From Bacillota bacterium (GTDB taxonomy: Bacteria > Bacillota > Clostridia > Clostridiales > Clostridiaceae): DNA of 64,000 bases. The notes below the pieces were generated by a model. It worked only from the letters and a program-made list of their open reading frames with translations. It ran no database searches and was not told where the DNA came from. This document shows positions 3,365 to 27,581 of the stretch, piece after piece. Each line of letters starts with the position of its first letter. Within the stretch, counting starts at the first letter, position 1. Position numbers and translations under genes: made by a program. The stretch spans positions 1-64,000 of the forward strand of contig JAJXWJ010000003.1 of the NCBI GenBank assembly GCA_021781655.1, read 5' to 3'.

Positions 3365-3393
3365 TGACAAGTAGTGGAAATCGCACACTATTT
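3365..3393 (+). promoter_or_regulatory. Possible promoter for the aminotransferase operon
   Basis: The 301-base stretch between the IS110 pseudogene and the aminotransferase contains TTGACA (3365-3370) followed after 17 bases by ACTATT (3388-3393), or after 19 bases by TATTTT. It lies about 50 bases before the start codon at 3443. The -10 match is weak. The rest of the stretch (3142-3364) is probably the IS110 upstream end; I see no gene in it. Confidence 0.35.
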
Positions 3394-3442
3394 TTTCATT
3401 ACTATTTGTGTCGCAAGCGATAGCGGCGAAATGGAGGTTAAT

Positions 3443-6368: not shown

Positions 6369-7338
6369 AAAAGTGTTAAATTATAAAACAATACAAGATA
6401 ATTGGAATATAAAAATAGTTGATGAGCTTGAATTAGTAAAAAATCAAGGATATATGAGTAGGGTTTGGAAATGTAAGGATAATTCAAAAGAATATATATT
6501 GAAAGAATTTGCAATCAGATTTGATGAAAGAAGTATTTATCCAGCATGTGAATGTCAAAAATACTTAGCTTTATTTGGATTAGCGCCTAATGTCTACTAT
6601 ACAAAAGACATGATGTTATACTGCAAGATTGATAAACATTTTTATTTTTTATCAGATAAAATTGAAGGTACAAATATAAAAAGCAGAAATTTATCAAAAG
6701 AGATTATAAGTTGTTTAGGTAAGTTTGTCGCCAGTATTCATTTAAGATTAAGTACAATGAACATACATTTAGAAGATTATCATACATGGTTTGAAGTTCC
6801 TAACGTTGAAAGAAAAAAAATAGAGTTTAAGGATCTGATTGCTTCTGATATAAGTGGATATAGTTTTTTAGAAGAACAATACTATTATTTTTTAAAATTC
6901 GTAAGCAACAAGCATCTGAATTTTAAATTTCCATTTCAATTTATACATGGGGATATGCATTTGAATAATATAATCATGAGCTTGCAGAATAACGACTTAA
7001 AAATAATAGACTTTGATCAGGTCTCATTTTTCCCACGTGTTTATGAAATAGGGAGATTTTTATTAACTATAATCAATTTGGAAAAGGATTTTCATGGGAA
7101 TATCAAAATTTTTCAAATATTTTTTCATGCATATACAAGTATATATCCTCTTAGTAAAGATGAAAAGTCGGGAATGTTTGATTATTATTATTTTTGTTTA
7201 ATTTCAAATGTTATTTGCTATTATAAAGAGTATGAGGTAAAAGATAATCTTAAATTTGTTCTTGAACGGTTACAAAAAATGAGGTGGATTAATGAAAATA
7301 TAAATCTAATTAAGGAATTTTTAAATAGTGACTTTTGA
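6358..7338 (+). CDS. Aminoglycoside-phosphotransferase-fold protein
   Basis: 326 residues of the APH/choline-kinase fold. The catalytic loop FIHGDMHLNNII (histidine about residue 197, Asp two later, Asn downstream) and the metal-binding KIIDFDQVSFFPRVYEIGRFL are intact, so it is probably an active kinase. The start appears to be TTG at 6358, overlapping the carbamoyltransferase by 11 bases; GTG at 6373 is an alternative. Members phosphorylate small-molecule hydroxyls (aminoglycosides, macrolides, homoserine, choline). In this operon it may phosphorylate a pathway intermediate or give self-resistance. The gene ends the first operon; the next 330 bases are non-coding. Confidence 0.8.
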   Translation: MRNKKVLNYKTIQDNWNIKIVDELELVKNQGYMSRVWKCKDNSKEYILKEFAIRFDERSIYPACECQKYLALFGLAPNVYYTKDMMLYCKIDKHFYFLSDKIEGTNIKSRNLSKEIISCLGKFVASIHLRLSTMNIHLEDYHTWFEVPNVERKKIEFKDLIASDISGYSFLEEQYYYFLKFVSNKHLNFKFPFQFIHGDMHLNNIIMSLQNNDLKIIDFDQVSFFPRVYEIGRFLLTIINLEKDFHGNIKIFQIFFHAYTSIYPLSKDEKSGMFDYYYFCLISNVICYYKEYEVKDNLKFVLERLQKMRWINENINLIKEFLNSDF

Positions 7339-7484
7339 TTAAGAAAATATCTAGCAGTAAGATTTAAGGTATAATAAAAATTTTTGTAACAGCAATAATG
7401 TTAATTTTGTTTTTTAATAAGTGTTTCAAGTTATTATTTTTTTGCAAAGTTCTATAGAAAATTAGATATTTAATATAATGAATG

Positions 7485-7513
7485 TTGACATAAAATATGA
7501 AAATTTGTATTTT
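7485..7513 (+). promoter_or_regulatory. Possible promoter in the 7339-7669 gap
   Basis: The 331-base gap between the APH-like and HPrK-like genes is strongly AT-rich and has no convincing gene. It contains TTGACA (7485-7490), a 17-base spacer and TATTTT (7508-7513). If real, it would drive the HPrK-like gene, with a leader of about 150 bases. AT-richness makes such matches common. Confidence 0.35.
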
Positions 7514-7669
7514 ATTTAAAATATAATGTATTTGGGAAGCATTATACAAATGTCACATGCTTGTGTAAACAACTTAATGTAAGATGATTAGGAAGGTTTA
7601 ATAGAAAAAGACTATGTTATAGATGATAGGTAGTGTAAGTGAGAATTTTATTGGATATGGGAGGATTAA

Positions 7670-8815
7670 ATGGAACATACAGGAAAACAATTGAACTCAG
7701 AAATTAAAACCGAATTTAATCAAAAAATATATTACTTGAAAATTTATTTAGATGAGATAGTTATTGGAATTCAACTTAATGACTTAATATATTACAATTG
7801 GATTCTTAAATATTTTCAAAATTATTTTAATGAAATTACATGTTATAAAGAAGAGTACAAATATGATAAAGACATTATAAATATTGAGGTTTATAATTAT
7901 AATGATTTGATTGCTCTTAGAAATCAAGTTTTAAATGATAATAATTATATACCCGAAATAATAACTTATCATTCATATTTTTCTAGTAATCGCAAATGTG
8001 AACATGAATATTGTGTTATAAACGATATAAATGGAGAAAGTAAGAAAATAATTGTTTTTATTCCTAATAAATGTGAGGAAGCTAAATATACAGTTATAAG
8101 AATAATTAGAAATATACTTATTCATTTATCGTGTAATTCTGGATTATTATATTTACATGCGGCAGCGGTTGAGAAAAATGGGAGTGGAATAGCTATAGTA
8201 GGAAATAAATATGCTGGCAAAACAACGACCTTGATTAATTTGATAACTTACGGAGACTGTTCCTTTATTACAAACGATAAATTGTTGTTAAATGGATGTA
8301 AAGAAACATACATATATGGTCTTCCAATATCTATAGGAATAAGAAGCGGAACTATTTTGAAAAATAAAATTTTGTTTGATAAAATTTGGTTTAATCGAAG
8401 AAAATTCGAACATTATTTATGTCAGAGAGAATTAGATGGGCTAGATAGTGAAGAAGAATATATAAAATACCTAAAAGAAAATCTGGGAAAAATATTTCTA
8501 CTACCTTATGAATTGTGTAATCTTTTAGACACTAATATCGTATCTAAATCACCGCTTAAAATAATAATAATACCTGAATATAATATAAACTGTGTTAAAC
8601 CTGAAATAAACAAAGTCTCAAAAAAGGAGTCCCAGAAGGTTATAGAAAATAATGTTTTAGAGTACGATGGGTTTCGAAATAAAATTTTAAATAACAATAA
8701 GACAATAATAGCTAAGTTCCTTGATTCAGTAGAAGTTTTTAAAATAGAATATAATGAAAATTTAGTTAAAAGTTTAATTGAAATAGTAGACAATTTATTA
8801 AAATCTAATTTGTAA
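7670..8815 (+). CDS. HPr-kinase-like P-loop protein
   Basis: 381 residues. The N-terminal 150 residues are not recognisable. The C-terminal part resembles HPr serine kinase: LHAAAVEKNGSGIAIVG leads into a P-loop GNKYAGKTTT (about residues 178-187), followed by FITNDKLLLNG. The upstream half of a true HPr kinase is absent, as in the HPrK-like proteins found beside lasso-peptide and PqqD-type systems, where some phosphorylate the product peptide. ATG follows GGGAGG. No lasso cyclase or leader peptidase is present, so its substrate here is open. It stands alone between two non-coding gaps. Confidence 0.75.
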   Translation: MEHTGKQLNSEIKTEFNQKIYYLKIYLDEIVIGIQLNDLIYYNWILKYFQNYFNEITCYKEEYKYDKDIINIEVYNYNDLIALRNQVLNDNNYIPEIITYHSYFSSNRKCEHEYCVINDINGESKKIIVFIPNKCEEAKYTVIRIIRNILIHLSCNSGLLYLHAAAVEKNGSGIAIVGNKYAGKTTTLINLITYGDCSFITNDKLLLNGCKETYIYGLPISIGIRSGTILKNKILFDKIWFNRRKFEHYLCQRELDGLDSEEEYIKYLKENLGKIFLLPYELCNLLDTNIVSKSPLKIIIIPEYNINCVKPEINKVSKKESQKVIENNVLEYDGFRNKILNNNKTIIAKFLDSVEVFKIEYNENLVKSLIEIVDNLLKSNL

Positions 8816-9297: not shown

Positions 9298-10473
9298 ATG
9301 AATTTATTGGAAGAGAAAATCAGAAGAGACATACCAGAAATTTTTAATGAAAAAAAACTAATCAAACAACATCTTGATCGTTTGATTTGTATAATAAATA
9401 ACACAATTATTCCACCATACGAGATAATAATACAACCGTCAAGTGTATGTAATTTAAGATGCATGTGGTGTATAGGTAAGAATATTGATGAATATACAAA
9501 TAAATTAATGGATCAAAGATTAAGTAATGTTGATTCTATGTTAAAAATGATAAAGGGAATAATAGACTATAAAAAAGATATTCGGTATGAGGATAATGAA
9601 ATCAGAAATTATAAAGTGGAAAAAATTCAATTTTCTGGGCTTACAGGTGAACCGCTTGTATGCAAAGAACCTATTTTAGCAGCGATGAGAGAACTAGTAA
9701 AAAATGATAGACAAGTTGGTATGTTTACTAATGGAATTCTAATGGATGAAAGCACATGGGAAACATTAATTGATACAAATTATGTACTAGTTAGTGTTGA
9801 TGCAGGGCAAGGAGCTACGTATAATTCTATGAAGTATCCAGATTCAAATGATGATATTATAGGAAAAGTTCATAGTAATATTAATGGATTAATTAAACTT
9901 AGGAATCGTAGACAAAGTAATTTAGATGTTAATGCAGGGTTTGTTATTAATCCAGATAATTATAAAGAACTATATATGGCAGCTAAAAATTTAAAAGATA
10001 TAGGTATTCATTATCTTAGAATAAAAACAGACATATCATCCACGTATAATTTGAGTAGTGATCAGATAAAAGAATCAGAGGAAATTTTACAAGAAACAAA
10101 GCTAAAATTAGAAGATGATTATTTTAAGATTATTGAAATCCATAAAATATATGATAATGACGCTAAGAAGCGTAATTTCAGTAAATGTTATATGAATTCA
10201 ATTATGTCAGCAATTTCAGCTGATGGTGAGATGTATCCTTGTAATTATCAAACAAAAATTGGTAGACAACCTTATGGGAATGTAATTGATAAACCTTTTG
10301 GAGATGTCTTTGAAATGAAAATTGAGCGTGATTTACGTTATAAAATACCTGAAAATTGTCCCAAAGTATGCGATCCATTTAAAAACCGTTCTAATAGATT
10401 ATTTGAGATTGTTGAAGGAATATATCATGAATATGGGTTAGAAGCCCTTAAGGCATATATAAGAGAATTATAA
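9298..10473 (+). CDS. Radical SAM protein with SPASM-like C-terminus
   Basis: 391 residues. The CX3CX2C cluster motif is at C51, C55 and C58 (CNLRCMWC), followed by a typical SAM TIM barrel (FSGLTGEPLVCKEPI, the GGEP-like loop). The C-terminal third has further cysteines in CYMNSIMSAISADGEMYPC and NCPKVCDPF, the pattern of SPASM or twitch domains that hold auxiliary 4Fe-4S clusters. Such enzymes modify peptides or small amines by radical chemistry (anSME-like, or BtrN-like dehydrogenation in butirosin). ATG follows TTGGAGGGA. It is 17 bases from the Nudix gene, implying a shared transcript. No peptide substrate gene was found nearby. Confidence 0.85.
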   Translation: MNLLEEKIRRDIPEIFNEKKLIKQHLDRLICIINNTIIPPYEIIIQPSSVCNLRCMWCIGKNIDEYTNKLMDQRLSNVDSMLKMIKGIIDYKKDIRYEDNEIRNYKVEKIQFSGLTGEPLVCKEPILAAMRELVKNDRQVGMFTNGILMDESTWETLIDTNYVLVSVDAGQGATYNSMKYPDSNDDIIGKVHSNINGLIKLRNRRQSNLDVNAGFVINPDNYKELYMAAKNLKDIGIHYLRIKTDISSTYNLSSDQIKESEEILQETKLKLEDDYFKIIEIHKIYDNDAKKRNFSKCYMNSIMSAISADGEMYPCNYQTKIGRQPYGNVIDKPFGDVFEMKIERDLRYKIPENCPKVCDPFKNRSNRLFEIVEGIYHEYGLEALKAYIREL

Positions 10474-10490
10474 AAAGGAGAACTGAAAAT

Positions 10491-10988
10491 ATGGAGAAAA
10501 ATGATGCACGTCAAATTCTTATCTTGCCTTATTATATTGATAAAAGTGAAGATAAATTATATTATGCATTGTTTAAAAGCAAGGATACAGAAGTGTGGAT
10601 GGGCGTATCAGGAGGTTGTCATTTTGGCGAAGATTATGAAAAAGCAGCCATTCGTGAGGCAGAAGAGGAAATTGGATTTAGCGGAGATATACTACAATTA
10701 GATACTGTAGCATATATAAGAAAAGATATTTTTTATAACTTCAAAGATTGGAATGATGATATATTGGTTATTCCCCAAGTGTATTTTGGAATGCAATTAA
10801 AGAAGAAATTAATAGCATTAAATGACGAATTCATTGAATTTATATGGGTAGATTTTGAATCAGCATATAAGATGTTGTTTTTTCAAAACAATAAGACTGC
10901 TATTTGGGAATTAAATGCAAGATTATTAAAAAAATTAAAAGGTAAGGATTTCTTAAATTATAGGGTTTTTTCTATTGATTGCGTATAA
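10491..10988 (+). CDS. Nudix hydrolase with intact Nudix box
   Basis: 165 residues. The box GX5EX7REUXEEXGU is complete in GGCHFGEDYEKAAIREAEEE plus IGF. Nudix enzymes hydrolyse nucleoside diphosphates linked to another group, such as dNTPs, NDP-sugars, ADP-ribose or CoA. It closely follows the radical SAM gene, so it may act in the island pathway, for example on an NDP-sugar or nucleotide intermediate, but this is inference. A second, related Nudix gene follows after a gap of about 190 bases. Confidence 0.85.
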   Translation: MEKNDARQILILPYYIDKSEDKLYYALFKSKDTEVWMGVSGGCHFGEDYEKAAIREAEEEIGFSGDILQLDTVAYIRKDIFYNFKDWNDDILVIPQVYFGMQLKKKLIALNDEFIEFIWVDFESAYKMLFFQNNKTAIWELNARLLKKLKGKDFLNYRVFSIDCV

Positions 10989-11182
10989 ACCAAATGTAGA
11001 AAATTTCAAAACATTGAGTGTTAATAAGGGGACAGAGAATCTACAATAGTTTATTATTTTTAAAATGTAGAGCATAATATAATAAAATGATGATATAGAT
11101 AGTTACAAGTTTGAAAGATATAGAAGTAAATTTTATGCAAATTTAACGTATAATTAAGTAATATTACAGGAGGATGTTGTAT

Positions 11183-11638
11183 ATGGCAAGAGCAAAATTT
11201 CAGATATTATTAATACCTTACTTAAAAAAAAATGAAGTCATTGAATATTGCATTTTTAAGAGAAAGGATTTAGGTATATGGCAGTTTATTGCAGGCGGAG
11301 GAGAAGATGATGAAATACCACTAGAGGCTGCTAAGAGAGAAGGATATGAAGAAGCTAAGATTGATATTAATAGTAAATATGTTCAACTAAAATCGATAAC
11401 TAGTATCTCAACGGAATTTTTTACAGAAAAGCATAGGGAAATTTGGGGAAAGGAAACTTTGGTTATTCCGGAATATTCCTTTTCAGTTGAATTACGTAGT
11501 AAAGAGATTATTATAGCGGAAGAGCATACAGAGTTTATATGGGTTACTTATGAAGAAGCCAAGAACCTACTTAAATGGGATAGTAATAAAACAGCATTGT
11601 GGGAACTAGACAATATTATTAAAATGAGTCTCTTATAA
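11183..11638 (+). CDS. Second Nudix-family protein, altered box
   Basis: 151 residues, related to the preceding Nudix protein (both share LLIPYL/ILPYY openings, VIPEYSF/VIPQVYF and EFIWV near the end). The Nudix box is GGGEDDEIPLEAAKREGYEE followed by AKI: the catalytic Glu residues are kept, but the box glycine is replaced by Lys. Activity is therefore likely but not certain. ATG at 11183 is preferred over 11174 because AGGAGG at 11168-11173 is spaced nine bases from it. A tandem duplication followed by divergence is the simplest origin. Confidence 0.8.
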   Translation: MARAKFQILLIPYLKKNEVIEYCIFKRKDLGIWQFIAGGGEDDEIPLEAAKREGYEEAKIDINSKYVQLKSITSISTEFFTEKHREIWGKETLVIPEYSFSVELRSKEIIIAEEHTEFIWVTYEEAKNLLKWDSNKTALWELDNIIKMSLL

Positions 11639-14849: not shown

Positions 14850-15226
14850 AAATAAACTAATAAATAATGGTGCTCATGTTAAGACTTTTGATCCTATGGG
14901 GATTGAAAATGCAAAAATAATTTTTAAGGATGAAAAAGATAATGTTAAATTTTGTGAAAATATTGAACAAGCAATGCAGGATGCTAATGCAGTAGTTATT
15001 ATGACTGGATGGCATCAATTTAAAAATATTGATCTACTAAATGCAAAGAAAATATTAAAAATCCTATTATTTTCGATTATCGGAATTTATATTCGAAAGA
15101 ATGTGTTGAAAGGATTGGGTTTAGATATACTGGGATTGGAATTTAATTTCAATTCGCATGGTTTAAATACACTGTCTTTAGACGATATAATCTTATAGCC
15201 ATTTAAGAAACTATAAATATGACAAT

Positions 15227-15252: not shown

Positions 15253-15681
15253 ATGAGGGAATACAATAAAAGAAGTCACACTGTATTTGACATAAAATAT
15301 CATGTCATATGGGTAACAAAATATAGATATTAAGTATTGAATAAACTAATAGCTTCAAGGTTACGAGAACTAATCAGACAAGGTTGCAAATCAAGAAATA
15401 TTACAATTGTTAGAGGAAGAATTGGAAAAGACCACGCTCATATATTAATAGGACGTTCTCAGAACATTGCTCCAAGTAAGATTGTACGGTATCTTAAGTG
15501 GAGGTCATCAAGATTGATACAAAAGATCTTCTCAAAATTAAAGAAAAGATACTAGGGGCAACATTTGTGGGCAAGAGGATATTTTTGTGCAACGGGTGGT
15601 AGTGTTACAGAAGAAACTATTGAAAGGTATATAGAATGTCAAGCACTTAGTGATAAAGAAGATATATTCAAGAGAAGTATA
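15253..15681 (+). pseudogene. IS200/IS605 TnpA (Y1 transposase) with two stop codons
   Basis: Read through, this frame gives a nearly complete TnpA: SHTVFDIKYHVIWVTKYRY, then GRIGKDHAHILIG, SKIVRYLKWRSSRL and WARGYFCATGGSVTEETI with the family order. Two in-frame stops interrupt it: TAA at 15331-15333 (where Lys is usual, AAA to TAA) and TAG at 15553-15555 (where Trp is usual, TGG to TAG). The HUH histidine pair is reduced to HAHILIG. The frame runs without a stop into the following nucleotidyltransferase gene, so the right end of the element is unclear. Confidence 0.85.
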
Positions 15682-15720
15682 TGCAAAGAATTTGAGAGTT
15701 TATTAATGGAGGTTTTCAAT

Positions 15721-16794
15721 TTGAAAAAAGAAATTAGATTGATACTATTAGCTGTGTTAAAAAAAAGAAGTAAATTAGAAGAAGAAGAATTGGATACACT
15801 GATTAAATCTAAACAAGATTGGGGATTTATAGCTGGACAACTTCTTAATCACAGATTATCAGGTTATTTTTATGAAGGTCTAAACAGTGAACAAAGATAT
15901 TATATGTTGCCAGAGTTTAGGAGAACAATAAACCTTTTGCTAAAGGGGCAAAGGAAGTTAGCAATTGAAACAGTAAATACTTTACAGCCTATTTTAAATG
16001 AATTTGACAATCAAGGTATAAGGTATGCAGCATTGAAAGGATTGGTATTTCATGCTAATATTTATAAAATTGGAGAAAGAAGGTCTAATGATTGTGATAT
16101 TTTAGTGTTGGAAGAAGATTTAGAAAAGCTAGATAAAGTTCTTAGAAAATTTGGATTTATTCAAGCTTTGGGGAATAGTAATACTGAAGCTACAAGAAAA
16201 GAAAAGATAATACAGCGATTAAATTATCACGATTTAGTTCCTTATGTCAAAGAATTTAATCTAGATTTTCTTGAAAAATTAAGAGTAGACATAAACTTCC
16301 ATTTTGATTCCAAAGATCATGATATTACTAAGCAAATAATTGATTACGGTACTACTATATATTCTAATGATAAATATAAAATTAAAGGATTAAAGTGGGA
16401 AACACATCTTGCACATTTATGTGTTCATTTTCACCGAGAAGGTAGTAATAATATATGGGTGGATGATAAAAGAGATGTAACCTTGTACAAAATTGTAGAT
16501 ATAATTAATACACTTAGATTGCATAGTAGTAAAGAACAATTATATAATTGGTTAAAATTAATGAAAGATTTTGGTTTAGAACAACAGTGTTATTTCACTT
16601 TATATCACTTAATGGAATTTTATCCAAATGAAATAAGTGAAGATATTGTTGATTTAATTAGACCTAGTGAGGTTTCTTTTGTTAATGAGGTAAAAATAAA
16701 TAATAATATAATTAAAACCAGAGAAGTAAGCTTCTTTGATCAAACGTTTAATCTAGTTTTTTCTAAAGATTTTAGAAAGCAAAAGCAAGACTAA
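15721..16794 (+). CDS. Nucleotidyltransferase-family protein (PF14907 type)
   Basis: About 358 residues. The core AALKGLVFHANIYKIGERRSNDCDILVLEEDLEKL is the 'GxxL ... R ... DxD' nucleotidyltransferase signature of the uncharacterised NTP_transf_5 family; the Asp pair D-x-D (NDCDILV) should bind metal. The start is probably TTG at 15721, eight bases after GGAGG; the open frame upstream belongs to the dead IS200 TnpA. In known systems such proteins stand beside HPrK-like kinases and lasso-peptide genes, where they extend phosphate tails, or in surface-sugar loci. Here an HPrK-like gene is 7 kb upstream. The substrate is unknown. Confidence 0.75.
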   Translation: MKKEIRLILLAVLKKRSKLEEEELDTLIKSKQDWGFIAGQLLNHRLSGYFYEGLNSEQRYYMLPEFRRTINLLLKGQRKLAIETVNTLQPILNEFDNQGIRYAALKGLVFHANIYKIGERRSNDCDILVLEEDLEKLDKVLRKFGFIQALGNSNTEATRKEKIIQRLNYHDLVPYVKEFNLDFLEKLRVDINFHFDSKDHDITKQIIDYGTTIYSNDKYKIKGLKWETHLAHLCVHFHREGSNNIWVDDKRDVTLYKIVDIINTLRLHSSKEQLYNWLKLMKDFGLEQQCYFTLYHLMEFYPNEISEDIVDLIRPSEVSFVNEVKINNNIIKTREVSFFDQTFNLVFSKDFRKQKQD

Positions 16795-16836
16795 TAAATA
16801 ATGATGATTAAAATTTAAAATTGTAGAGGGAGATTT

Positions 16837-17679
16837 ATGGACAAATATATAGATCTACATACACATACTACTTCTTCTGATGGATTGTTAGAACCAGCAG
16901 AACTTATAAAAACAGCTGCTTCTATTGGTTTAAGTGCGATTGCTATAACTGATCATGATACTATAGATGGTATCTATAAAGCAAAAGAAGAAGCTTTAAA
17001 ATATAATATTGAGCTAATTAATGGCATTGAGCTAAGTGCTGAATCTTCATATAATTCACATATATTGGGATATTTTGTTGATATTGAAAATAATATTTTT
17101 AAGAGTAAACTAAAAACAATAAGTGATAAAAGACTTAGCGAAATAATAAAAGTTTTTTCTTGCCTAAGGAAACTAGATATTAAAATTTCTCCAAATGAAG
17201 TTGTTAAACAATTTGGGGCACTAAGTATTAATGGAATAGCAAAAACTATGTGTTTAAAAGGGTACACTGATTCTACTGATGAAGCTTTTCATAAGTATTT
17301 ATCAGTTAATAGACCGGCTTATGTAAAGAAGTCAAATTTAACACCTAAAGAGGCTATAGAATTAATTAAAATAGCTAATGGCATAGCTGTTCTGGCACAT
17401 CCTTGTAGATTAGGAGTTGAAGAGTCAAAATTTTTAGAAATATTAGAAGAATTAATAAGTTACGGATTAGATGGTATAGAAGTATTTCATTGCGATCAAA
17501 AAAATTATGGTTACTATAAAAAGATAGCAACTCAATATGATCTTATTCTGTCTGGAGGAAGTGATTTTCATGGGGATGGTACTTCTGCATTAGGAGAAGC
17601 TAACAACAATAAAAAAATAATGTATGAAATATTAAATAGTTTAAAAAAGTATTATAGATTACATTATCACATCAAATAA
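16837..17679 (+). CDS. PHP-domain phosphoesterase
   Basis: 280 residues with all four PHP motifs: DLHTHTTSSDG (HxH), ITDHDTIDG, VLAHPCR and GGSDFHG. The family binds three metals and hydrolyses phosphoesters; close relatives of this size (YciV/TrpH type) remove phosphate from nucleoside 3',5'-bisphosphates or trim short RNAs. It follows the nucleotidyltransferase by 42 bases and is likely co-transcribed. A role in the island pathway, such as removing a phosphate from an intermediate or recycling PAP after carrier-protein priming, is possible but is inference. Confidence 0.82.
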   Translation: MDKYIDLHTHTTSSDGLLEPAELIKTAASIGLSAIAITDHDTIDGIYKAKEEALKYNIELINGIELSAESSYNSHILGYFVDIENNIFKSKLKTISDKRLSEIIKVFSCLRKLDIKISPNEVVKQFGALSINGIAKTMCLKGYTDSTDEAFHKYLSVNRPAYVKKSNLTPKEAIELIKIANGIAVLAHPCRLGVEESKFLEILEELISYGLDGIEVFHCDQKNYGYYKKIATQYDLILSGGSDFHGDGTSALGEANNNKKIMYEILNSLKKYYRLHYHIK

Positions 17680-17833
17680 TAAAATAAGTAAAATCAATAT
17701 TGGTTTTAGATGATTATTATTGAAAAATTTAAAAACTTTTATTATCAATATCTAGCATAAACATTGTATGTTTTAAGATATTCCAAGTAATAAAGTCTAT
17801 AATTTTATTGAATAATTTAATATAATTAACCAC

Positions 17834-18118: not shown

Positions 18119-19255
18119 GTGAAAATACTAGAAGTTAATATTGATAAAAGTATCGACCATGATGAATTTAGAAAGATAGTGAGTTTTATATCAGAAGATA
18201 TTACATCATATTCTATGGAAGAAGGAAAAATAATATTAAGGTTAGTGAATGAAGCTGATAATGTTCAAATTAAAAATGAAGTGATTCGCATGGCTAGTAA
18301 GTTTGTTTCAACTTCAGAGCTAAATCGTGAAGTATTTGTAAATAAAGTTGAGAGGGATTATCATAGTTTGTATGAAACGAAAATAGTCCATGTTTTTGAA
18401 AATGGAATGATTTCTCTTCAAAAAGAAGCACTATTTTTATATAAATATTTCGAAAATATTTTTAGAAACATTGCAATATTTATAGATGATCAATGTATTG
18501 AAAAATCATATCCGGTTATTTTACCTATTAATCAATACAAAAAAACTGGATACTTAACAAATTCACCTCAATACTCAATGTTTTGTTGTTCAGCTTGTGA
18601 GAATATTCAGATGTTAGAGCAATTGGATAAATACGCAGACAGTGAAGCTATTGAGAAATATTTAAATAGACCTGCATATGCATTATCTCCTTCTGCATGT
18701 TTTCATACATATCTAGAATATGAAAATCAGATTCTGGATAAGAATCAAACTGTTACTTTTACCCAAAGCGTATTCCGGAATGAAGGAAGATTTAATTATA
18801 CTGATTTTGGAAGACTTCGAGATTATCATGTGCGTGAAATTGTGTTATTAGGGAATATGGAGTATGTAATAGAAAAACGTAAAAAAATAGTTGACCAAAT
18901 AATTACATTTATAAAAGAAATAAATCTTTGTGGAGATATTTCAATAGCATCTGATCCTTTTATTATGCCAAAAATGCAGAAATTTAAAAAAATACAGGTT
19001 ACTGAAGCGAGTAAATATGAAATGCATTTGAATTATGAAAAAGAACAAAAACTATCAGTGGCATCTTTCAATCTACATGGAACTGCCTTTACTCATCCAT
19101 TTAATATTAAGATTAAAGAATGCCAAGAAGCAGTAACAGGCTGTGTGGGATTTGGATTAGAAAGATGGGTGCTAGCGTTCTTAAAGCAATATGGTGTAAA
19201 TGTTAAAAATTGGCCACAAAAAATAAAGGAGGTGTACTATAATGAAAAACGTTAA
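18119..19255 (+). CDS. Aminoacyl:carrier-protein ligase (class II synthetase-like)
   Basis: 378 residues resembling the catalytic core of atypical seryl-tRNA synthetases without a tRNA-binding arm. Motif 2 is FRNEGRFNYTDFGRLRDYHVRE (around residues 219-240) and motif 3 is GFGLERWVLAFL (from about residue 343). Cys-rich MFCCSACENIQ (about residue 155) and the Cys before motif 3 are candidates for the Cys/Glu/Cys zinc site that binds the amino acid amine. Family members activate glycine or alanine with ATP and load it on the phosphopantetheine of a small carrier protein. The next gene is exactly such a carrier and overlaps this one by 14 bases. GTG start; the ribosome site AAGGGA is 11 bases upstream. 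Confidence 0.88.
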   Translation: MKILEVNIDKSIDHDEFRKIVSFISEDITSYSMEEGKIILRLVNEADNVQIKNEVIRMASKFVSTSELNREVFVNKVERDYHSLYETKIVHVFENGMISLQKEALFLYKYFENIFRNIAIFIDDQCIEKSYPVILPINQYKKTGYLTNSPQYSMFCCSACENIQMLEQLDKYADSEAIEKYLNRPAYALSPSACFHTYLEYENQILDKNQTVTFTQSVFRNEGRFNYTDFGRLRDYHVREIVLLGNMEYVIEKRKKIVDQIITFIKEINLCGDISIASDPFIMPKMQKFKKIQVTEASKYEMHLNYEKEQKLSVASFNLHGTAFTHPFNIKIKECQEAVTGCVGFGLERWVLAFLKQYGVNVKNWPQKIKEVYYNEKR

Positions 19256-19490
19256 AGATGTAGTTTTGCAATGTCATAATGCACTATTAAAAGAGAAAGG
19301 AATTAATAAAATATCTAGTCCGGATATGGATATGACTAGAGAAAATGGTATTGATTCTTTAGGAATTGTTTCGTTAGTTCTAGAAATTGAGGAAGAATTA
19401 GGGGTTGAGTTGGACTCAGTGTTGGCAATGATTAGAAAAAGTAAAAAAATCGCTGAATTTATTGAGGTTATTGAGAATGCAATTGGATAG
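19242..19490 (+). CDS. Acyl/aminoacyl carrier protein
   Basis: 82 residues with the phosphopantetheine site GIDSLGIVSL (Ser39) in the usual four-helix setting and acidic helix 2 (LEIEEELGVEL). It overlaps the ligase gene upstream and the BtrH-CYTH gene downstream (14 bases each), so its partner relations are clear: charged by the ligase, primed by the Sfp-type transferase at 25709, unloaded by the BtrH-type protein. AAGGAGGTG provides a strong ribosome site inside the ligase gene. Confidence 0.92.
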   Translation: MKNVKDVVLQCHNALLKEKGINKISSPDMDMTRENGIDSLGIVSLVLEIEEELGVELDSVLAMIRKSKKIAEFIEVIENAIG

Positions 19491-21066
19491 AAAATATATA
19501 CACGAAATATATAATCAAGAACAGAATTTTTATGATGGATATGAATCATTCTGTTTTCAGAATTGTTTACGTATTCTTCTGGAATCAAAAGGATTCAGGA
19601 GTGCTGCTCTATACATTAATTCATCATTGTCTTTAATATATGATGAAAATGAGGACGTTTGTAAGTTCCGTACACATGAAAATGTAAGGGGGTTACTACC
19701 TTCTCTTAATGATTATGTAAAAAGATATTATTATGATAGCCCAAATAAAGAAGAAATTTTTTATGAAAACATTAAATACATGTTTACCCATAATGAGCCA
19801 ATTATTGTGGGTGTAGATACATATTATTTACCATATGCAATAAATTATATGAAGAATCATGCTGTTCATACTCTAATATTGGCCGGATATGATTTGGATA
19901 GAAATGAAGTGAACTTAATTGATTGGTATGAGCCTTGGCTTTTTAAAGGTACCATAGATATAGATATTTTCTTGCAGGCAAGGAATTCAGAAAATCCATA
20001 TGATGGTACGGTATTCAGTGGAGTTCCTATTCAAAATAATTGGGCATATATAGAGAAATTCGATCAGAAAGAAACTAGAAAATTATTTAAAGAAGTTATT
20101 CAGTATACAATGAAACAGTATTATGTAGACTACGACAACGTAGGACCACAGGCTTTATGCAAAATGTATAATTATTTTAAGAGTTGTAAAAGTGAATCAG
20201 GATATATTGGTATATATAAAGATATATATACCGGAATAAAGCGACACAAGTTATTCTTATTATATTTAAGTATATATTTAACTATCGAAGATATAAAGTT
20301 GTTAGCTAATGCTATTGAATTGTTAAAAGAAGTTGTTAAAAAATGGGATATTATGTTAATGCTTTTAATGAAGCAAGCAAAAAATCCTACAGAGAGAACT
20401 AAAACTCGTGCTTTAAATAAGTTCCAAGAAATAATAGAGGATGAAAGCAAATTATATACATGCATAAATCAAATTAATGATTTTCTAAACACAACTGAAC
20501 TTGAAAAGGAAGTGAAGATACTTTTAAATAAACAGGAGTATGAAAGGCTTAATAATGTATTTTTATGGAACGATAAGTTTCAACAGATAAACTACTATTA
20601 TTTAGACCGAGAAAAAATGCTACAAAAAAATAATATTACTGTGCGAGTAAGGAAAAAAAGAGACACTTATAAGTTACAAATCAAAATTCCAGTCAAAATT
20701 GAAAGGGAATTACATATCAAGTCTGAATATGAGGAAGATGTAGATAATGATCTAAGTTTTATTCCAGCAAATAAGATTGAAAAAGTTTGTAACATTTCTG
20801 TTGGTGATGCTTCAAAGATTGGAGAACTAGTTACAGAGAGACAAGTTTGTCAGTGGAATGATGATATTAAAATATGCTTAGATAGAAATACATTTTTAGG
20901 AATGGAAGATTATGAGCTTGAAATTGAATACACTAATCGATTAGATAAACAGATTATAGACAAAATCAAGCAGTGTAATATATCTGTAGGAAACTCGACA
21001 AAAGGGAAGTATGGAAGGTTTTCTGAAAGATACTTTTCTATTAAAAGTGAGGAGGAATTAGGTTGA
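19477..21066 (+). CDS. BtrH-type acyltransferase fused to a CYTH domain
   Basis: 529 residues from ATG 19477 (GAGG nine bases upstream; overlaps the carrier gene). Residues 1 to about 200 match the BtrH_N fold: Cys26/Cys30 in FCFQNCLRILLE, His131 in HAVHTLILAGYD and Asp149 in NLIDWYEPW form the expected Cys-His-Asp triad. In butirosin, BtrH moves an acyl group from a carrier protein to an amine. A helical linker follows. Residues 341-529 are a CYTH/triphosphate-tunnel domain with the ExExK signature EKEVK (343-347), TVRVRKKRDTYKLQIKI, the TERQ strand and LDRNTFLGMEDYELEIEY. I know of no characterised BtrH-CYTH fusion. The tunnel may bind or hydrolyse a polyphosphate or nucleotide, or bind a phosphate-bearing acceptor. 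Confidence 0.85.
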   Translation: MQLDRKYIHEIYNQEQNFYDGYESFCFQNCLRILLESKGFRSAALYINSSLSLIYDENEDVCKFRTHENVRGLLPSLNDYVKRYYYDSPNKEEIFYENIKYMFTHNEPIIVGVDTYYLPYAINYMKNHAVHTLILAGYDLDRNEVNLIDWYEPWLFKGTIDIDIFLQARNSENPYDGTVFSGVPIQNNWAYIEKFDQKETRKLFKEVIQYTMKQYYVDYDNVGPQALCKMYNYFKSCKSESGYIGIYKDIYTGIKRHKLFLLYLSIYLTIEDIKLLANAIELLKEVVKKWDIMLMLLMKQAKNPTERTKTRALNKFQEIIEDESKLYTCINQINDFLNTTELEKEVKILLNKQEYERLNNVFLWNDKFQQINYYYLDREKMLQKNNITVRVRKKRDTYKLQIKIPVKIERELHIKSEYEEDVDNDLSFIPANKIEKVCNISVGDASKIGELVTERQVCQWNDDIKICLDRNTFLGMEDYELEIEYTNRLDKQIIDKIKQCNISVGNSTKGKYGRFSERYFSIKSEEELG

Positions 21067-22058
21067 AAGATACCTTGATTAAAGTAGATAATATAAAAAA
21101 GTCATTTAAAATTAACAAGAGAGCGAATGGACTTCCAGGACATATCGCTAATCTTTTTGTACCAAAGTATGAAATGAGAAAAGCTGTAGATGGTATTAAT
21201 TTTGAAATTAAAAAGGGTGAAGCAGTAGGATTTATAGGTTCTAATGGTGCGGGAAAATCAACAACGATAAAAATGTTGTCAGGAATCTTATATCCAGATG
21301 AAGGGAATATAGAGATAGCTGGATTTATTCCATATAAGCAAAGAAAGGCATATGTGTCCAATATTGGGGTTGTATTTGGACAAAAATCACAATTATCTTG
21401 GGACTTGCCCATTATAGATAGTTATGAACTATTAAAGCATATTTATAAAATTCCATATGAAACATATGAAAAAAATCTAAAACAATTTACAGAACTTTTA
21501 GATATGTCTTCCTTTATTGAGCAACCGGTAAGACAGCTTTCGTTAGGTCAGAGAATGAGGGCTGATATAGCTGCATCGTTATTACATTCGCCTAATTTAG
21601 TTTTCTTTGATGAACCAACCATCGGATTAGATGTTGTGGCAAAAGAAAGGATTAGAGAATTTATTCGTTATATTAATCGGGAAAAAGGAATTACGATAAT
21701 ATTTACTACACATGATATGCAGGATATAGAAAAGACCTGTAGCAGGCTAATATTAATTGATAAAGGCAAAAAGTTATATGATGACAGCGTAAATGGATTA
21801 TTAGAAAAATATTCAACTCAGAGAAAATTGAAAGTTGAATTTGAGGTGGATTATAATATAGAACCAATTGAAAATGTTGTTATAGAAAACAAGGAAAATA
21901 ATAAGAAAGTCTTTTCTTTTAGTAATCAAAATGTATCTATTAAAAGTCTTATTTCTGATTTAATGGGAAGGTATGAAATAAAAGACATGTCTATTGAGGA
22001 AATGGATATTGAAAGTGTAGTAAGGAAGATATATGAAGGAGGAATCAAGATTTCATGA
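21063..22058 (+). CDS. ABC-2 type exporter, ATP-binding protein
   Basis: 331 residues. Walker A GSNGAGKSTT (about 58-67), signature LSLGQRMR (about 158) and Walker B LVFFDEPTIGLD (about 178-189) are intact. A C-terminal extension of about 100 residues follows, as in drug and polysaccharide exporters of the ABC-2 class. TTG start preceded by GAGGAGG; overlaps the BtrH-CYTH gene by four bases and the first permease by four (ATGA). It should power export of the island product and possibly give self-resistance. Confidence 0.93.
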   Translation: MKDTLIKVDNIKKSFKINKRANGLPGHIANLFVPKYEMRKAVDGINFEIKKGEAVGFIGSNGAGKSTTIKMLSGILYPDEGNIEIAGFIPYKQRKAYVSNIGVVFGQKSQLSWDLPIIDSYELLKHIYKIPYETYEKNLKQFTELLDMSSFIEQPVRQLSLGQRMRADIAASLLHSPNLVFFDEPTIGLDVVAKERIREFIRYINREKGITIIFTTHDMQDIEKTCSRLILIDKGKKLYDDSVNGLLEKYSTQRKLKVEFEVDYNIEPIENVVIENKENNKKVFSFSNQNVSIKSLISDLMGRYEIKDMSIEEMDIESVVRKIYEGGIKIS

Positions 22059-22843
22059 GTACATATTTAGGGTATTTTAAGATAGCATTTCATAATAATA
22101 CTGTGTATAGGGTGGAATACTTACTTGGAATATTAAACACATGTCTTCAAATCTTTATTTCATGTACAATATGGAAAGTTTTATACGGAGGTCAACCAGA
22201 GGTAAAAGGAATTACGTATGCTGCAGTTGCAACTAATCTAATAATTGCGCTTGGACTTAGTAATGCATTTTCACTAAATGACTTTTCAATCCAGCAAAAA
22301 ATTGGCGACGGTTCTATTGCAATGGAACTACTAAAGCCCATTGATTTAAGGATTAGTTTGCTTGCTGGAAACCTTGGAGAGATTATATTCAAATTATTAA
22401 CTAATTTTATTCCATCTGTGATATTTGCGGCATTGTTTATAGGTATTCTGCCGCCTGCGGGAGTTGTGGCAGTAATCTTTTTCGTGATTAGTGTTGTATT
22501 GGGTTTTGCGATACTATGGACAATTAGTACAATTATTCAGATGACTGCTTTTTGGATAATAAATGTGTGGAGTGTATCTACAATTAAAAATGTAATCATA
22601 AATATTTTAGCAGGTGCTTCCTTACCACTATGGTTTATGCCAGAATATATTAAAAAATTTATTCAATACACTCCATTTGATTCCATTTATTTTGTGCCAG
22701 TAAAAATATATATGGGAAAGATAAGCGATGGCGATATACTTTTCTATTATGGTAAGCAGATTATGTGGTTTGTTTTGTTATATACTATAGGTTTTCTTAT
22801 GTGGCAGAGAGGAAAAAGAAGAATTGTGGTACAAGGAGGATGA
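22055..22843 (+). CDS. ABC-2 family permease (first)
   Basis: 262 residues with about six hydrophobic segments (for example LLGILNTCLQIFISCTIW, FFVISVVLGFAILWTI, MWFVLLYTIGFLMW). The pattern and the pairing with a second, similar-sized permease fit the ABC2_membrane_6 (DUF990) group of exporters. It lies in the tight operon 18119-25399, overlapping the ATPase gene and ending two bases before the next permease. Confidence 0.85.
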   Translation: MSTYLGYFKIAFHNNTVYRVEYLLGILNTCLQIFISCTIWKVLYGGQPEVKGITYAAVATNLIIALGLSNAFSLNDFSIQQKIGDGSIAMELLKPIDLRISLLAGNLGEIIFKLLTNFIPSVIFAALFIGILPPAGVVAVIFFVISVVLGFAILWTISTIIQMTAFWIINVWSVSTIKNVIINILAGASLPLWFMPEYIKKFIQYTPFDSIYFVPVKIYMGKISDGDILFYYGKQIMWFVLLYTIGFLMWQRGKRRIVVQGG

Positions 22844-22845
22844 TT

Positions 22846-23667
22846 ATGGATAATAATAGTAATGATAACTCATTTTATATGTTTCTTTATTATGCAAAGA
22901 ATACAATAAAATCATGGTTTCAATATAAAGTAGATGCCTGTATGCGATCTCTAGCAGTGTTCTTAAGGGAAGCTGCAGGTATAGTAGTTATTTACCTTAC
23001 ACTTATGACTTTTGATAATATAAATGGGTGGAAGCCAAATGAATTATTATTCTTATTTAGTTTGCTTTTCTTGACATATGGTGTACTGATTATATTTTTC
23101 ACTGGTTTACGAGATTTTGAGAATATGATAAACAATGGAGGGTTTGATAGATTTATTTTGCGTCCAAGAGGTTTGCTATTTCAGGTAATAGCTAGTAATG
23201 CAGATTGGTTTGCAGCCATTGGGCATGGTGGATTGGGTATTACTTTATTTATTATTTCAGCAGGGGAAATAGGTATATCGTGGAATTTGAAAACTATTTT
23301 GTACTATATTGCAGTGGTTATCGGTGGAGTATTAATTCAGGGAGCAATTTTTTTAGTAATGGCATCACTAAGCTTTTACTTTATCAAGTCTAGGAATATA
23401 AGTGAGGTCTTTTATTGGAATGTTAGAAAATTTGCTGGTTATCCAATAAGTATTTTTCCAAAGATTATTCAGTATATTATGATGTATATTGTCCCATTTG
23501 CATTTGTAAACTATTTTCCAGCTCAATATTTCCTTAGAAAGAGCGACATGAATCAGTATCCACTTTTATTTATGTATATAACGCCTGTAGTAGGTATAGT
23601 ATTGTATTTGTCTGCTTATGTATTTTGGAGGAAAAGTTTATTTCATTACAAAAGTACAGGAAACTAG
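22846..23667 (+). CDS. ABC-2 family permease (second)
   Basis: 273 residues, about six membrane segments (VFLREAAGIVVIYLTL, LLFLFSLLFLTYGVLII, ILYYIAVVIGGVLIQGAIFL and others). ATG at 22846 is set by GGAGG six bases upstream; a longer frame from 22765 overlaps the first permease without a ribosome site. With the first permease and the ATPase it forms a three-component exporter. Confidence 0.85.
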   Translation: MDNNSNDNSFYMFLYYAKNTIKSWFQYKVDACMRSLAVFLREAAGIVVIYLTLMTFDNINGWKPNELLFLFSLLFLTYGVLIIFFTGLRDFENMINNGGFDRFILRPRGLLFQVIASNADWFAAIGHGGLGITLFIISAGEIGISWNLKTILYYIAVVIGGVLIQGAIFLVMASLSFYFIKSRNISEVFYWNVRKFAGYPISIFPKIIQYIMMYIVPFAFVNYFPAQYFLRKSDMNQYPLLFMYITPVVGIVLYLSAYVFWRKSLFHYKSTGN

Positions 23668-23689: not shown

Positions 23690-25399
23690 ATGTTTTACGA
23701 TAAAGTAGTACAAGGTACTTTGATTCAAGGTGAAAATGTGTATCCGGCGGAAACTTTAAAAGAACAAATTGAAAGAATAAAAATAATCCTTAATAGTTTA
23801 AATTTGAAAGAGCCTTTAGTTGCATTGGCTTTACCCCGAAATGTTTATCTTATAGCATCAATGTTTGCATCACTAGAAAGCAATATTACATTTTTGCCTA
23901 TAGATACAGGACAGCCAAAAGAACGGATACAATATATGCTAGAATTTGCTCAAGTAAGCTATGTGCTTACCTTAACTGAAAATGTTTTTGACTTTGGAGG
24001 CATTAATACAATATATTTGGATAATCATGAATATAATACTGATATATGTATACAAAATGATAATATTAAAAACAACATAGCTTACATTTTATATACTTCT
24101 GGTACAACAGGGAAACCTAAAGCTGTAGAAATTACAAGGGAAGGTTTGAATAATTTTATCGAAGGAATCCCTTCATTAATCGAATTTAATGAGGGAAAAA
24201 GATTGGCATGTTTCACAAGTGCAACATTTGATATATTCTTTTTAGAAACAGTGGTGGCACTTTATAAAGGTGTGAATGTAGTTTTGGCGAATGAAGATGA
24301 ACAGAATAATCCTAAGAAAATGATTAAAATATTAGATGATTATTCTATTAATATGATACAGATGACACCATCTCGCTTGAAGATAATACAAGCATTTGAT
24401 AATGAATTTGAATGTTTAAAAAATATTCATACCATAATGATTGGTGGAGAAAAACTCCATTATGAAATTTTTAAAAGCTTACAAAACAAAACAAAGGCCA
24501 AAATATACAATATGTATGGTCCAACAGAAACTACTATATGGTCTACAGTAAGTGAACTTACAAAAAAAAACAAAATAGATATTGGACAACCGATTCTTAA
24601 TACAAGAGTATACTTACTTTCTGATGATATGAAAGAAGTTACTAATGGAAACATTGGGGAAATTTGCATTAGTGGTAGCGGTTTGGCAAGGGGTTATTTG
24701 AATAGTGAAATACAAACAGAAAAATCATTTTGTAACTTATCTTTTTATCCATACGAAAGAATTTATAGAACTGGAGATTTAGGAAGATATGATGAAGATG
24801 GTGATTTATTATGTTTGGGTAGGAAAGATGAACAGATAAAATTACGGGGACACAGAATTGAGTTAGAGGATATTGATACTAATATGCTAAAAGTTACAGG
24901 AATAAAGATGATAGCATCTTGTTTCGACACTGAAAAAGAACAGTTGATTTCATTTTATATAAGTGATACTAATTTAGATGATAAAGTTATACATAAGCAG
25001 GCTAAATTATATTTACCAGAATATATGATACCAGATAAGTTTTGCAGAGTGGAACATATGATGTATACATCAAGTGGTAAAATGGATCGAAGAGCACTTC
25101 TTAGTGCTAACAAGGATGTTGAGAAGATAGCCAGTGAAATGCATGAAGTTGACTCAAAAATAAAAGATGAAGTTCTGGAAGTTGTAACTAACACCATCAG
25201 AACTGTAACAGAAAGTACAATAACTTTACTAGATGGAAAAACAAAGATTGAGGAATTAGCACTAAATTCAATTAGCTATATCAATATGATAGTTGAATTA
25301 GAGAGCATATTTGATATTGAATTTGAAGATGAAAAATTGGGAGTTACAGCGTTTGAAAGTGTTGATTATATTGTGAAATATATTAAAGAACTAATGTAA
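23690..25399 (+). CDS. NRPS adenylation-PCP didomain
   Basis: 569 residues. Adenylation motifs are ILYTSGTTGKPKAV (A3), YNMYGPTETTIWS (A5), YRTGDLGRYDEDGD (A7), GRKDEQIKLRGHRIE (A8) and SSGKMDRRAL with the catalytic Lys (A10). A carrier domain follows from about residue 490, with Ser527 in LALNSISYI as phosphopantetheine site. No condensation, epimerisation or thioesterase domain is present. By position, the specificity residues read D-I-L-Q-M-G-M-I-W-K, very near the glycine code D-I-L-Q-L-G-L-I-W-K as I remember it, so glycine or another small amino acid is my prediction. It is the last gene of the operon begun at 18119. Confidence 0.92.
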   Translation: MFYDKVVQGTLIQGENVYPAETLKEQIERIKIILNSLNLKEPLVALALPRNVYLIASMFASLESNITFLPIDTGQPKERIQYMLEFAQVSYVLTLTENVFDFGGINTIYLDNHEYNTDICIQNDNIKNNIAYILYTSGTTGKPKAVEITREGLNNFIEGIPSLIEFNEGKRLACFTSATFDIFFLETVVALYKGVNVVLANEDEQNNPKKMIKILDDYSINMIQMTPSRLKIIQAFDNEFECLKNIHTIMIGGEKLHYEIFKSLQNKTKAKIYNMYGPTETTIWSTVSELTKKNKIDIGQPILNTRVYLLSDDMKEVTNGNIGEICISGSGLARGYLNSEIQTEKSFCNLSFYPYERIYRTGDLGRYDEDGDLLCLGRKDEQIKLRGHRIELEDIDTNMLKVTGIKMIASCFDTEKEQLISFYISDTNLDDKVIHKQAKLYLPEYMIPDKFCRVEHMMYTSSGKMDRRALLSANKDVEKIASEMHEVDSKIKDEVLEVVTNTIRTVTESTITLLDGKTKIEELALNSISYINMIVELESIFDIEFEDEKLGVTAFESVDYIVKYIKELM

Positions 25400-25708: not shown

Positions 25709-26272
25709 ATGTGTGGAAATTCTACAGAAATTTCTGAAGTATTAAATAAGAGAGATTCACAACACCTTATTAGGATGTTTCTTAATCAGATGCAAATCAA
25801 TAAAGATGATTTTAAATTTGAACGAGGAAATTTTGGGAAACCATATCTATTGGAAAGTGTGATTTTTTTTAATCTCTCATATAGTGATAATTATATTGCG
25901 GTAGTATTTTCTAGACAGGAAGTTGGAATTGATATCGAAGAAATATCAAATTGTAAGTTCAAAATAATGGATAGATTTTTTACAAGTAATGAACAAAGTT
26001 ATATAAAGAATTCAAACAACTTAAATATGACCAATCAGAGATTTTATGAAATTTGGACAAGAAAAGAAGCATTTATTAAAAGAGATGGTCGAGGACTAAA
26101 TATACCACTTAGGAGTTTTGATGTTTTAATTAATGAAAATGTACCGTATTTTAATACAATATTCTATAATAATCACATAATTAGTATTTGTGTAGATAAA
26201 AAAGAGGAGTATGAAATACATAATCTGCAATTAGATAAATTGGATATGTTTGAATGCTGTATCAATAATTAA
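25709..26272 (+). CDS. Sfp-type 4'-phosphopantetheinyl transferase
   Basis: 187 residues, shorter than Sfp (about 224) because the N-terminal segment is short. Signature motifs are present: NFGKPYL, FNLSYSDNYIAVVFS, VGIDIEEI (Mg-binding Asp) and FYEIWTRKEAFIKRDGRGL (W-x-x-KEA). It primes the Ser of carrier domains with phosphopantetheine from CoA; clients here are the ACP (19242) and the PCP of the adenylation protein. The start is uncertain: no good ribosome site stands before ATG 25709. Confidence 0.9.
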   Translation: MCGNSTEISEVLNKRDSQHLIRMFLNQMQINKDDFKFERGNFGKPYLLESVIFFNLSYSDNYIAVVFSRQEVGIDIEEISNCKFKIMDRFFTSNEQSYIKNSNNLNMTNQRFYEIWTRKEAFIKRDGRGLNIPLRSFDVLINENVPYFNTIFYNNHIISICVDKKEEYEIHNLQLDKLDMFECCINN

Positions 26273-26537: not shown

Positions 26538-27581
26538 ATGAAGATTAAAGAGTTACCATTTAAATTACCAAACAAATTTATTGCTTATAAACCATTTGAT
26601 GCATCTCGTATATCTATTTTACTGGCTCAAGAATCATTATGCAAAGAGATATATGAAAATTTTTTACATTTTCGTATTGAAAAAGAAATTGAAAAAGAAA
26701 ATATAAAATTAGATTGTCATTTTAATGAAGAGTTTTCAAGCATAGGTGTAAAAAAAGTACCTATTGATATAATAACAGATTTAGGAATCGATTTTATAAC
26801 ATTTTGCAGGACAGCCATAGAAAAGGATTTTTATATTTTCTTACCGATCGAGACATTTGAAGTAAGTAACTATATAAATTATAAAAAAAAATATAGACCA
26901 CACCATATATTTATATATGGATATAATAATGAAAAGGAAGTATTTTATTGTTCAGAATTTTTTTCATTTGATAAGGGTATTTATTCATCAGAAACAGTTA
27001 CATATAGAGAAATGGAGGAGGCATATTATAAATTACAAACTGAATTAGAAAGTAAAGTGATGCTTAATGAATGGGCTCAGTGGATGAAAGATATTCAGCT
27101 TCTCCATAGTTTTAGAGAGTATAACGATAAATTTAATATTAAAAGATTAATTTTAGGATTACAGAATTTTCTTGAAGAGAATGATTGTTATGGGAATAAA
27201 AATTATATAAAAGATGTATTTTACGGTTTTGCTATTTATGATTTGATTATTGAATATATAAACAATATTTTGAAAAGTAGTAAAAGTAATTTTGATATAA
27301 AGAGTCTATCATTAATTTTTTACAGATTTCGTTATATGAAATTGCAAGCACAATTTATTCAAGAAAATTATTCAAAGTATAATCAAAGTATACAGTCAAT
27401 TATAGATAGCTATTGGGAAATGGAAGAAAAGTCCTATAATGCATTAAAATTGGCTATCAAGTTTTCGATAAGTCATGAAAAAAATATATTGAATAAAGTT
27501 ATAAATTTGATAGAAGAGCTTAAGAAAAATGATTATATTGTAACAATAAATTACATCGAATGTTTAAAAAATATCATTTAG
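26538..27581 (+). CDS. BtrH/C39-like protein lacking an evident catalytic Cys
   Basis: 347 residues. The segment YRPHHIFIYGYNNEKEVFYCSEFFSFDKG (H122/H123 near its start) resembles the second half of the BtrH/C39-like fold, where His is followed by a beta-hairpin and an acidic residue; compare HAVHTLILAGYDLDRNEVNLIDWYE in the BtrH-CYTH protein. The N-terminal part has no matching Cys in the expected place, only Cys35 in QESLCKEIYENF. The C-terminal 170 residues are helical and unrecognised. It may be a second acyl acceptor-binding or transferase subunit. AAAAGGGG precedes ATG by eight bases. I am fairly unsure of the family. Confidence 0.55.
   Translation: MKIKELPFKLPNKFIAYKPFDASRISILLAQESLCKEIYENFLHFRIEKEIEKENIKLDCHFNEEFSSIGVKKVPIDIITDLGIDFITFCRTAIEKDFYIFLPIETFEVSNYINYKKKYRPHHIFIYGYNNEKEVFYCSEFFSFDKGIYSSETVTYREMEEAYYKLQTELESKVMLNEWAQWMKDIQLLHSFREYNDKFNIKRLILGLQNFLEENDCYGNKNYIKDVFYGFAIYDLIIEYINNILKSSKSNFDIKSLSLIFYRFRYMKLQAQFIQENYSKYNQSIQSIIDSYWEMEEKSYNALKLAIKFSISHEKNILNKVINLIEELKKNDYIVTINYIECLKNII

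Follow-up and report, generated by a model that had tools for sequence, protein, structure and literature searches.

A BtrH-type domain fused to a triphosphate-tunnel (CYTH) domain in an uncharacterised clostridial gene cluster family

The fusion gene and its neighbours

The window analyzed here, a stretch of 64,000 nucleotides from a member of the Clostridiaceae, contains an operon whose core consists, in this order, of a ligase-like synthetase, a carrier protein, a protein that unites a BtrH-type with a CYTH domain, and an ABC exporter (Table 1). Beyond the exporter, the operon continues with the adenylation protein, the phosphopantetheinyl transferase and a second BtrH-like protein. The gene for the fusion protein overlaps the carrier-protein gene upstream and the ABC ATPase gene downstream, and a GAGG stretch resembling a ribosome-binding site lies ahead of its start codon. 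Its open reading frame is intact, with the limits, frame and length given in a preliminary description of this DNA. The same description had read the product as a BtrH-type acyltransferase joined to a CYTH domain, and this reading was borne out, as both domains are real and score above their Pfam cut-offs. The junction between them is seamless, with BtrH homologues ending at about residues 335-340 and CYTH homologues starting at 341-343. A sequencing frameshift is thus an unlikely cause of the fusion, and an artefact of this kind was rejected. Note that the fused form was found in the genome of the window only; we consider the pairing of BtrH and CYTH as such to be real, because related clusters encode the two parts in genes of their own.

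Table 1. Features of the gene cluster in the window
Feature	Position	Strand	Remarks
DegT aminotransferase and carbamoyltransferase	3374..6368	+	probable left part of the cluster; membership putative
APH-type kinase (6358-7338) and weak HPr-kinase-like protein (7670-8815)	6358..8815	+	
Radical SAM/SPASM protein and two NUDIX proteins	9298..11638	+	domain matches
NTP_transf_5 nucleotidyltransferase	15565..16794	+	Pfam PF14907; in all five clusters, 40-48% identical
PHP-domain phosphoesterase	16837..17679	+	domain matches; also in G1104
Amino acid:[carrier protein] ligase-like class II synthetase	18119..19255	+	NCBIfam NF005479 (below curated cut-off); 46-48% identical in three related clusters
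Acyl carrier protein, DSL serine (GIDSLGIV)	19242..19490	+	Pfam PF00550 above cut-off; sequence
BtrH-CYTH fusion protein	19477..21066	+	529 aa; ATG at 19477, stop at 21066
BtrH_N domain with Cys26, His131, Asp149	19552..19923	+	aa 26-149; Pfam PF14399 above cut-off
CYTH domain	20500..20964	+	aa 342-496; Pfam PF01928; invariant residues; eight predicted strands; CYTH structure matches
ABC exporter ATPase	21063..22058	+	Pfam ABC_tran; 64-69% identical in R. bromii and G1104
ABC-2 permease 1	22055..22843	+	Pfam ABC2_membrane_6; homology
ABC-2 permease 2	22765..23667	+	homology; true start probably after 22843
Adenylation protein with C-terminal carrier-like domain	23690..25399	+	31-45% identical in three related clusters
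4'-phosphopantetheinyl transferase	25709..26272	+	domain match
Second, degenerate BtrH-like protein without aligned Cys	26538..27581	+	weak homology to R. bromii 16721-17797

The ligase-like synthetase shares class II synthetase homology and an adjacent carrier protein with the ligases of family NF005479 and matches their model with an E-value of 2.2e-37, but its score of 128.7 bits lies below the curated cut-off of 357. Upstream, the first ~50 residues of the NTP_transf_5 reading frame include an IS200 remnant, and the true start is probably near 15706-15721. A gene of the UDP-glucose/GDP-mannose dehydrogenase type is found in pieces at 12648-15198, around a minus-strand transposase-like gene (13325-14524), and the cluster may therefore be decaying in the window strain. 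At the other end, the second BtrH-like protein gave no Pfam match, and its Ruminococcus bromii homologue at 16721-17797 of locus L046 is itself a sub-threshold match to BtrH_N. The aligned cysteine is missing from both of these proteins, and it is present in the second BtrH-like proteins of Clostridium tepidiprofundi (L033 11055) and of genome G1104 (L066 1582).

Residues and folds of the two halves

In the N-terminal half, residues 26-149 match BtrH_N (PF14399) with 32.6 bits against a cut-off of 29.7. The Cys-His-Asp triad proposed in the preliminary description corresponds to C26, H131 and D149, all of which are present and invariant among the aligned BtrH-type sequences. As residues 1-227 mostly have a pLDDT below 50 in the structural model described below, the assignment of a putative triad rests on conservation rather than on geometry. 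The protein resembles BtrH, the acyl-carrier-protein:aminoglycoside acyltransferase of butirosin synthesis (PF14399), in its BtrH_N score above the cut-off, its Cys-His-Asp residues and the adjacent carrier gene, but differs in the fused CYTH domain and in having a carrier that would be charged by a synthetase-like ligase. AziU3/Azi29 of the azinomycin pathway catalyzes a reaction of a different kind from the acyl transfer by BtrH. It is the best match of the BtrH half among solved structures by sequence (PDB 7wuw, 8gs1; profile E 3e-7), where His and Asp align, but the aligned part is confined to profile positions after ~97, and the Cys region lies outside the comparison. A weak Foldseek match to AziU3 (E 3.5e-3) was obtained with this low-confidence part of the model, where a BtrH protein would be expected to show a papain-like fold. 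With the carrier gene directly adjacent, the BtrH half is a putative catalyst of acyl transfer from the carrier protein.

Domains of the CYTH type bind triphosphate chains and, as a rule, hydrolyze them. The CYTH domain (PF01928) is matched over residues 342-496 with 55.1 bits against a cut-off of 23.2 (E 1.1e-14). The ExExK signature was found where it had been described, at 343-347 (E343, E345, K347), and is followed by RxR at 390-392, K403, E419, R455 and ExE at 482-484, with a conserved K511 just past the end of the domain. The tunnel residues (ExExK, RxR, Lys, ExE) are invariant across five homologous clusters, which upholds the further claim that the later Arg, Lys and Glu residues of CYTH proteins are retained. 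Structure prediction from the single sequence of the fusion yielded no usable model (pLDDT 33). A model from five sequences, in which the window protein was joined by four incomplete homologous sequences of C. tepidiprofundi and R. bromii, places eight CYTH strands at residues 343-350, 366-375, 388-394, 397-407, 413-422, 448-461, 464-473 and 476-485, together with a C-terminal helix, at a pLDDT of 52-90 by block. The preliminary description had made its assignment depend on an eight-stranded tunnel in the C-terminal half, and such a fold is indeed predicted. CYTH/TTM structures occupy the top ranks of the Foldseek search, among them 2gfg (E 1.1e-9), SaTTM (target-normalised TM up to 0.68) and YgiF. 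By sequence, BH2851 (2gfg) and GBAA_1210 (3sy3) come closest among solved structures. All four proteins share the fold as well as ExExK, RxR, Lys and ExE with the CYTH half, but they either stand alone or are combined with other domains, and to our knowledge none of them comes from a cluster of this type.

Published motif rules separate class IV adenylyl cyclases, thiamine triphosphatases and triphosphatase types (PMC8233210). By these rules a class IV adenylyl cyclase was rejected, as no HF motif precedes ExExK (L337-N338) and the central arginine R390 is kept, and so was a thiamine triphosphatase, as WxRxR is absent and Thr388 stands in the place of Trp. Both arginines and ExE are kept, and the domain is thereby classed as one of the triphosphatase type (PMC8233210). 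In YgiF and AtTTM3, glutamates of an acidic patch bind a catalytic second metal and are needed for catalysis (PMC4641920). The window protein keeps these glutamates, so that residues of both metal sites are present. In combination, the motifs that speak against a cyclase or thiamine triphosphatase (PMC8233210) and the retained second-metal glutamates (PMC4641920) favor a working phosphohydrolase.

Distribution of the CYTH gene

The same core is found in four other genomes, C. tepidiprofundi, R. bromii YE282, and G1104 and G858, the latter two from the family of a Lachnospiraceae metagenome-assembled genome (MAG), and in all of them CYTH is a separate gene. In C. tepidiprofundi the order is ligase, carrier, BtrH and CYTH, with the start of CYTH overlapping the stop of BtrH; this arrangement corresponds to the fusion of the window in split form. 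By eye, the CYTH protein of this organism has a C-terminal extension resembling a membrane helix. R. bromii has the order NTP_transf_5, CYTH, ligase, carrier, BtrH, ABC, and G1104 the order carrier, ligase, CYTH, BtrH, ABC, with NTP_transf_5 at L078 3259-4359. G858 retains NTP_transf_5, a ligase with a broken frame, a carrier, a CYTH gene adjoining the ABC genes, and only a divergent BtrH-like protein. Its ligase is split over two frames (L067 8223-9448) and the nearby BtrH-like gene also looks broken, which may reflect sequencing errors or a decaying cluster. Upstream of the core in R. bromii (L046 2420-8243) lie genes for a short cysteinyl-tRNA-synthetase-like protein, an NDK-domain protein, ThiS- and ThiF-looking proteins, a phosphoribosyltransferase and an amidohydrolase, which suggests sulfur and nucleotide chemistry.

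As evidenced by whole-genome searches of the window genome and its four relatives, one CYTH protein was found in each, always inside the cluster, and a housekeeping CYTH gene placed there by chance was rejected on these grounds. In the tree, the CYTH homologues of the clusters and that of genome G009 fall into a single supported group (96/94). The five cluster CYTH proteins as a clade of their own were not rejected in the AU test (p 0.096), and the best tree puts G009 among them. A scan of genome contigs with the single fusion protein as query gave no match, as did scans of viral contigs, and an alignment of the ligase recovered three loci from the genome contigs. Wider ligase searches covered the order of the window organism (227 genomes), the family of R. 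bromii (250), that of the Lachnospiraceae MAG (348) and the phylum (399), and on this basis the cluster is rare. In G599 and G1031, which have close ligases, no CYTH gene was found in the genomes; both ligases are situated at the end of a contig or close to it, which precludes a judgement on their clusters.

The two parts also occur apart from each other. No CYTH gene was found at eight loci with more distant BtrH proteins or at four loci with more distant ligases, and a general need of BtrH proteins for CYTH was rejected on account of the former. At L036-L043 distant BtrH relatives stand in clusters with carrier and adenylation proteins, all lacking CYTH; several of these also contain NTP_transf_5 and ABC-2 exporters, and sometimes two BtrH genes per cluster. 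Conversely, plasmids of Streptococcus salivarius (pSaLI10, L073) and Geobacillus thermodenitrificans (pGeo12a, L074) bear clusters in which CYTH is accompanied by PqqD-family proteins, thymidylate synthases, a P-loop ATPase/kinase, a phosphotransferase and an ABC exporter. In the former, CYTH is fused to NUDIX (L073 7959-9044), and a related CYTH gene is present in the latter; the domain thus occurs in at least two fusions, with BtrH and with NUDIX. Beyond CYTH and the ABC genes no homologue of the window cluster was detected in the plasmid clusters, and neither BtrH nor ligase was found there. In a neighboring plasmid protein (L073 6305-6991, L074 5339-6112), a nucleotidyltransferase-like motif can be made out by eye, with no convincing Pfam match. 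A strict tie of CYTH to BtrH was rejected, given that G858 and the plasmid clusters have CYTH without this BtrH. Taken with the window-type clusters, the plasmid clusters mark CYTH as a component that recurs in small gene clusters of Bacillota with many phosphate and nucleotide enzymes.

Possible roles of the CYTH half

We infer two reactions, with their substrates and order, as follows. The fusion gene belongs to a small-molecule, antibiotic-like gene cluster in which the ligase-like synthetase, judging from its family, would load an amino acid onto the carrier protein. By means of Cys26-His131-Asp149, the N-terminal half would then accept the aminoacyl group from this carrier and transfer it to an acceptor amine, in the manner of BtrH in butirosin synthesis. 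The C-terminal half would bind, and probably hydrolyze, a group of polyphosphate or nucleotide type carried by an intermediate of this pathway. This phosphate step would be fused to the acyltransferase in the window and be left to a stand-alone or otherwise fused protein elsewhere. With moderate confidence, we regard the CYTH half as a metal-dependent triphosphate-tunnel enzyme that would carry out a separate step on a polyphosphorylated or nucleotide-linked intermediate and is fused to an aminoacyl transferase. The clusters contain several phosphate and nucleotide enzymes, NTP_transf_5 in all five and, in addition, APH-type kinases, HPr-kinase-like proteins, NUDIX, PHP and NDK proteins, and these fit a phosphorylated intermediate. 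Since those other than NTP_transf_5 differ between clusters, we infer rather than observe its polyphosphorylated nature. In pseudomycoidin lasso peptides (PsmK/PsmN), a kinase and a nucleotidyltransferase act on a phosphorylated or polyphosphorylated product (PMC9266682); this is an analogy and not a membership, and no lasso precursor or lasso-type enzymes were recognized among the annotated genes.

The preliminary description had proposed a functional coupling, in which the CYTH half either serves an acceptor that bears a di- or triphosphate or places acyl transfer under the control of a nucleotide. The split versions found in related clusters support a functional link between BtrH and CYTH, but an acceptor-holding or regulatory part is disfavored, as CYTH persists without this BtrH and keeps both metal sites. 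If the tunnel held the di- or triphosphate of the acceptor, for example a nucleotide or NDP-sugar, during transfer of the amino acid, the in-frame fusion, the direct adjacency of CYTH and BtrH in C. tepidiprofundi and G1104 and the nucleotidyltransferase and sugar-type genes of the cluster would all be accounted for. We nevertheless consider this unlikely, given that G858 retains CYTH without a BtrH of this group, that the two plasmid clusters have CYTH without a detectable BtrH, and that the glutamates of the second metal site, which binding alone does not require, are kept. The same persistence in G858 and on the plasmids, along with the intact metal sites, makes a separate catalytic step of the pathway the more likely role.

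A nucleotide sensor that switches acyl transfer on and off appears very improbable: CYTH is fused to the acyltransferase, and the tunnel of SaTTM closes upon ligand binding (PMC8233210), yet the other four clusters have CYTH as a gene of its own, no allosteric element was recognized in the protein and the set of catalytic residues is complete. It is also rather doubtful that the CYTH half clears pyrophosphate or tripolyphosphate released by the ligase, adenylation and nucleotidyltransferase enzymes and so pulls their reactions forward. Adenylating enzymes and a nucleotidyltransferase are present in the clusters, but the more distant ligase and BtrH clusters lack CYTH, and a pyrophosphatase is already present in ordinary cells. 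Inorganic tripolyphosphate is a common CYTH substrate (PMC8233210, PMC4641920), whereas pyrophosphate is an inhibitory product of SaTTM and not a substrate (PMC8233210). For the preferred role as a separate phosphate-processing step, note that binding alone could account for the conservation of the catalytic residues, and that CYTH often stands beside exporter genes (in the window, C. tepidiprofundi, G858 and the Geobacillus plasmid), so that it could instead have a role at export.

Both domains were known before, and their combination sits in an uncharacterised cluster family. In a literature search of incomplete coverage that included few subscription journals, no description of a BtrH-CYTH protein (PF14399 + PF01928) was found, and for CYTH domains in biosynthetic gene clusters only one apparently unrelated paper emerged. 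A more far-reaching and speculative possibility, which we think improbable, is that a family of clostridial carrier-protein-dependent pathways builds its product on a nucleotide or polyphosphate handle that CYTH, in the window joined to the aminoacyl transferase, would recognize and then remove, coupling acyl transfer to dephosphorylation; we know of no earlier description of such a coupling in natural-product synthesis. The clusters described here constitute a conserved clostridial biosynthetic family that includes R. bromii and has a triphosphate-tunnel enzyme as a core part. Triphosphate-tunnel enzymes have so far been discussed mostly as phosphatases and cyclases; a role in natural-product assembly, if true, would be a new kind of function for this large superfamily and could reveal a class of phosphorylated or nucleotide-tagged compounds.
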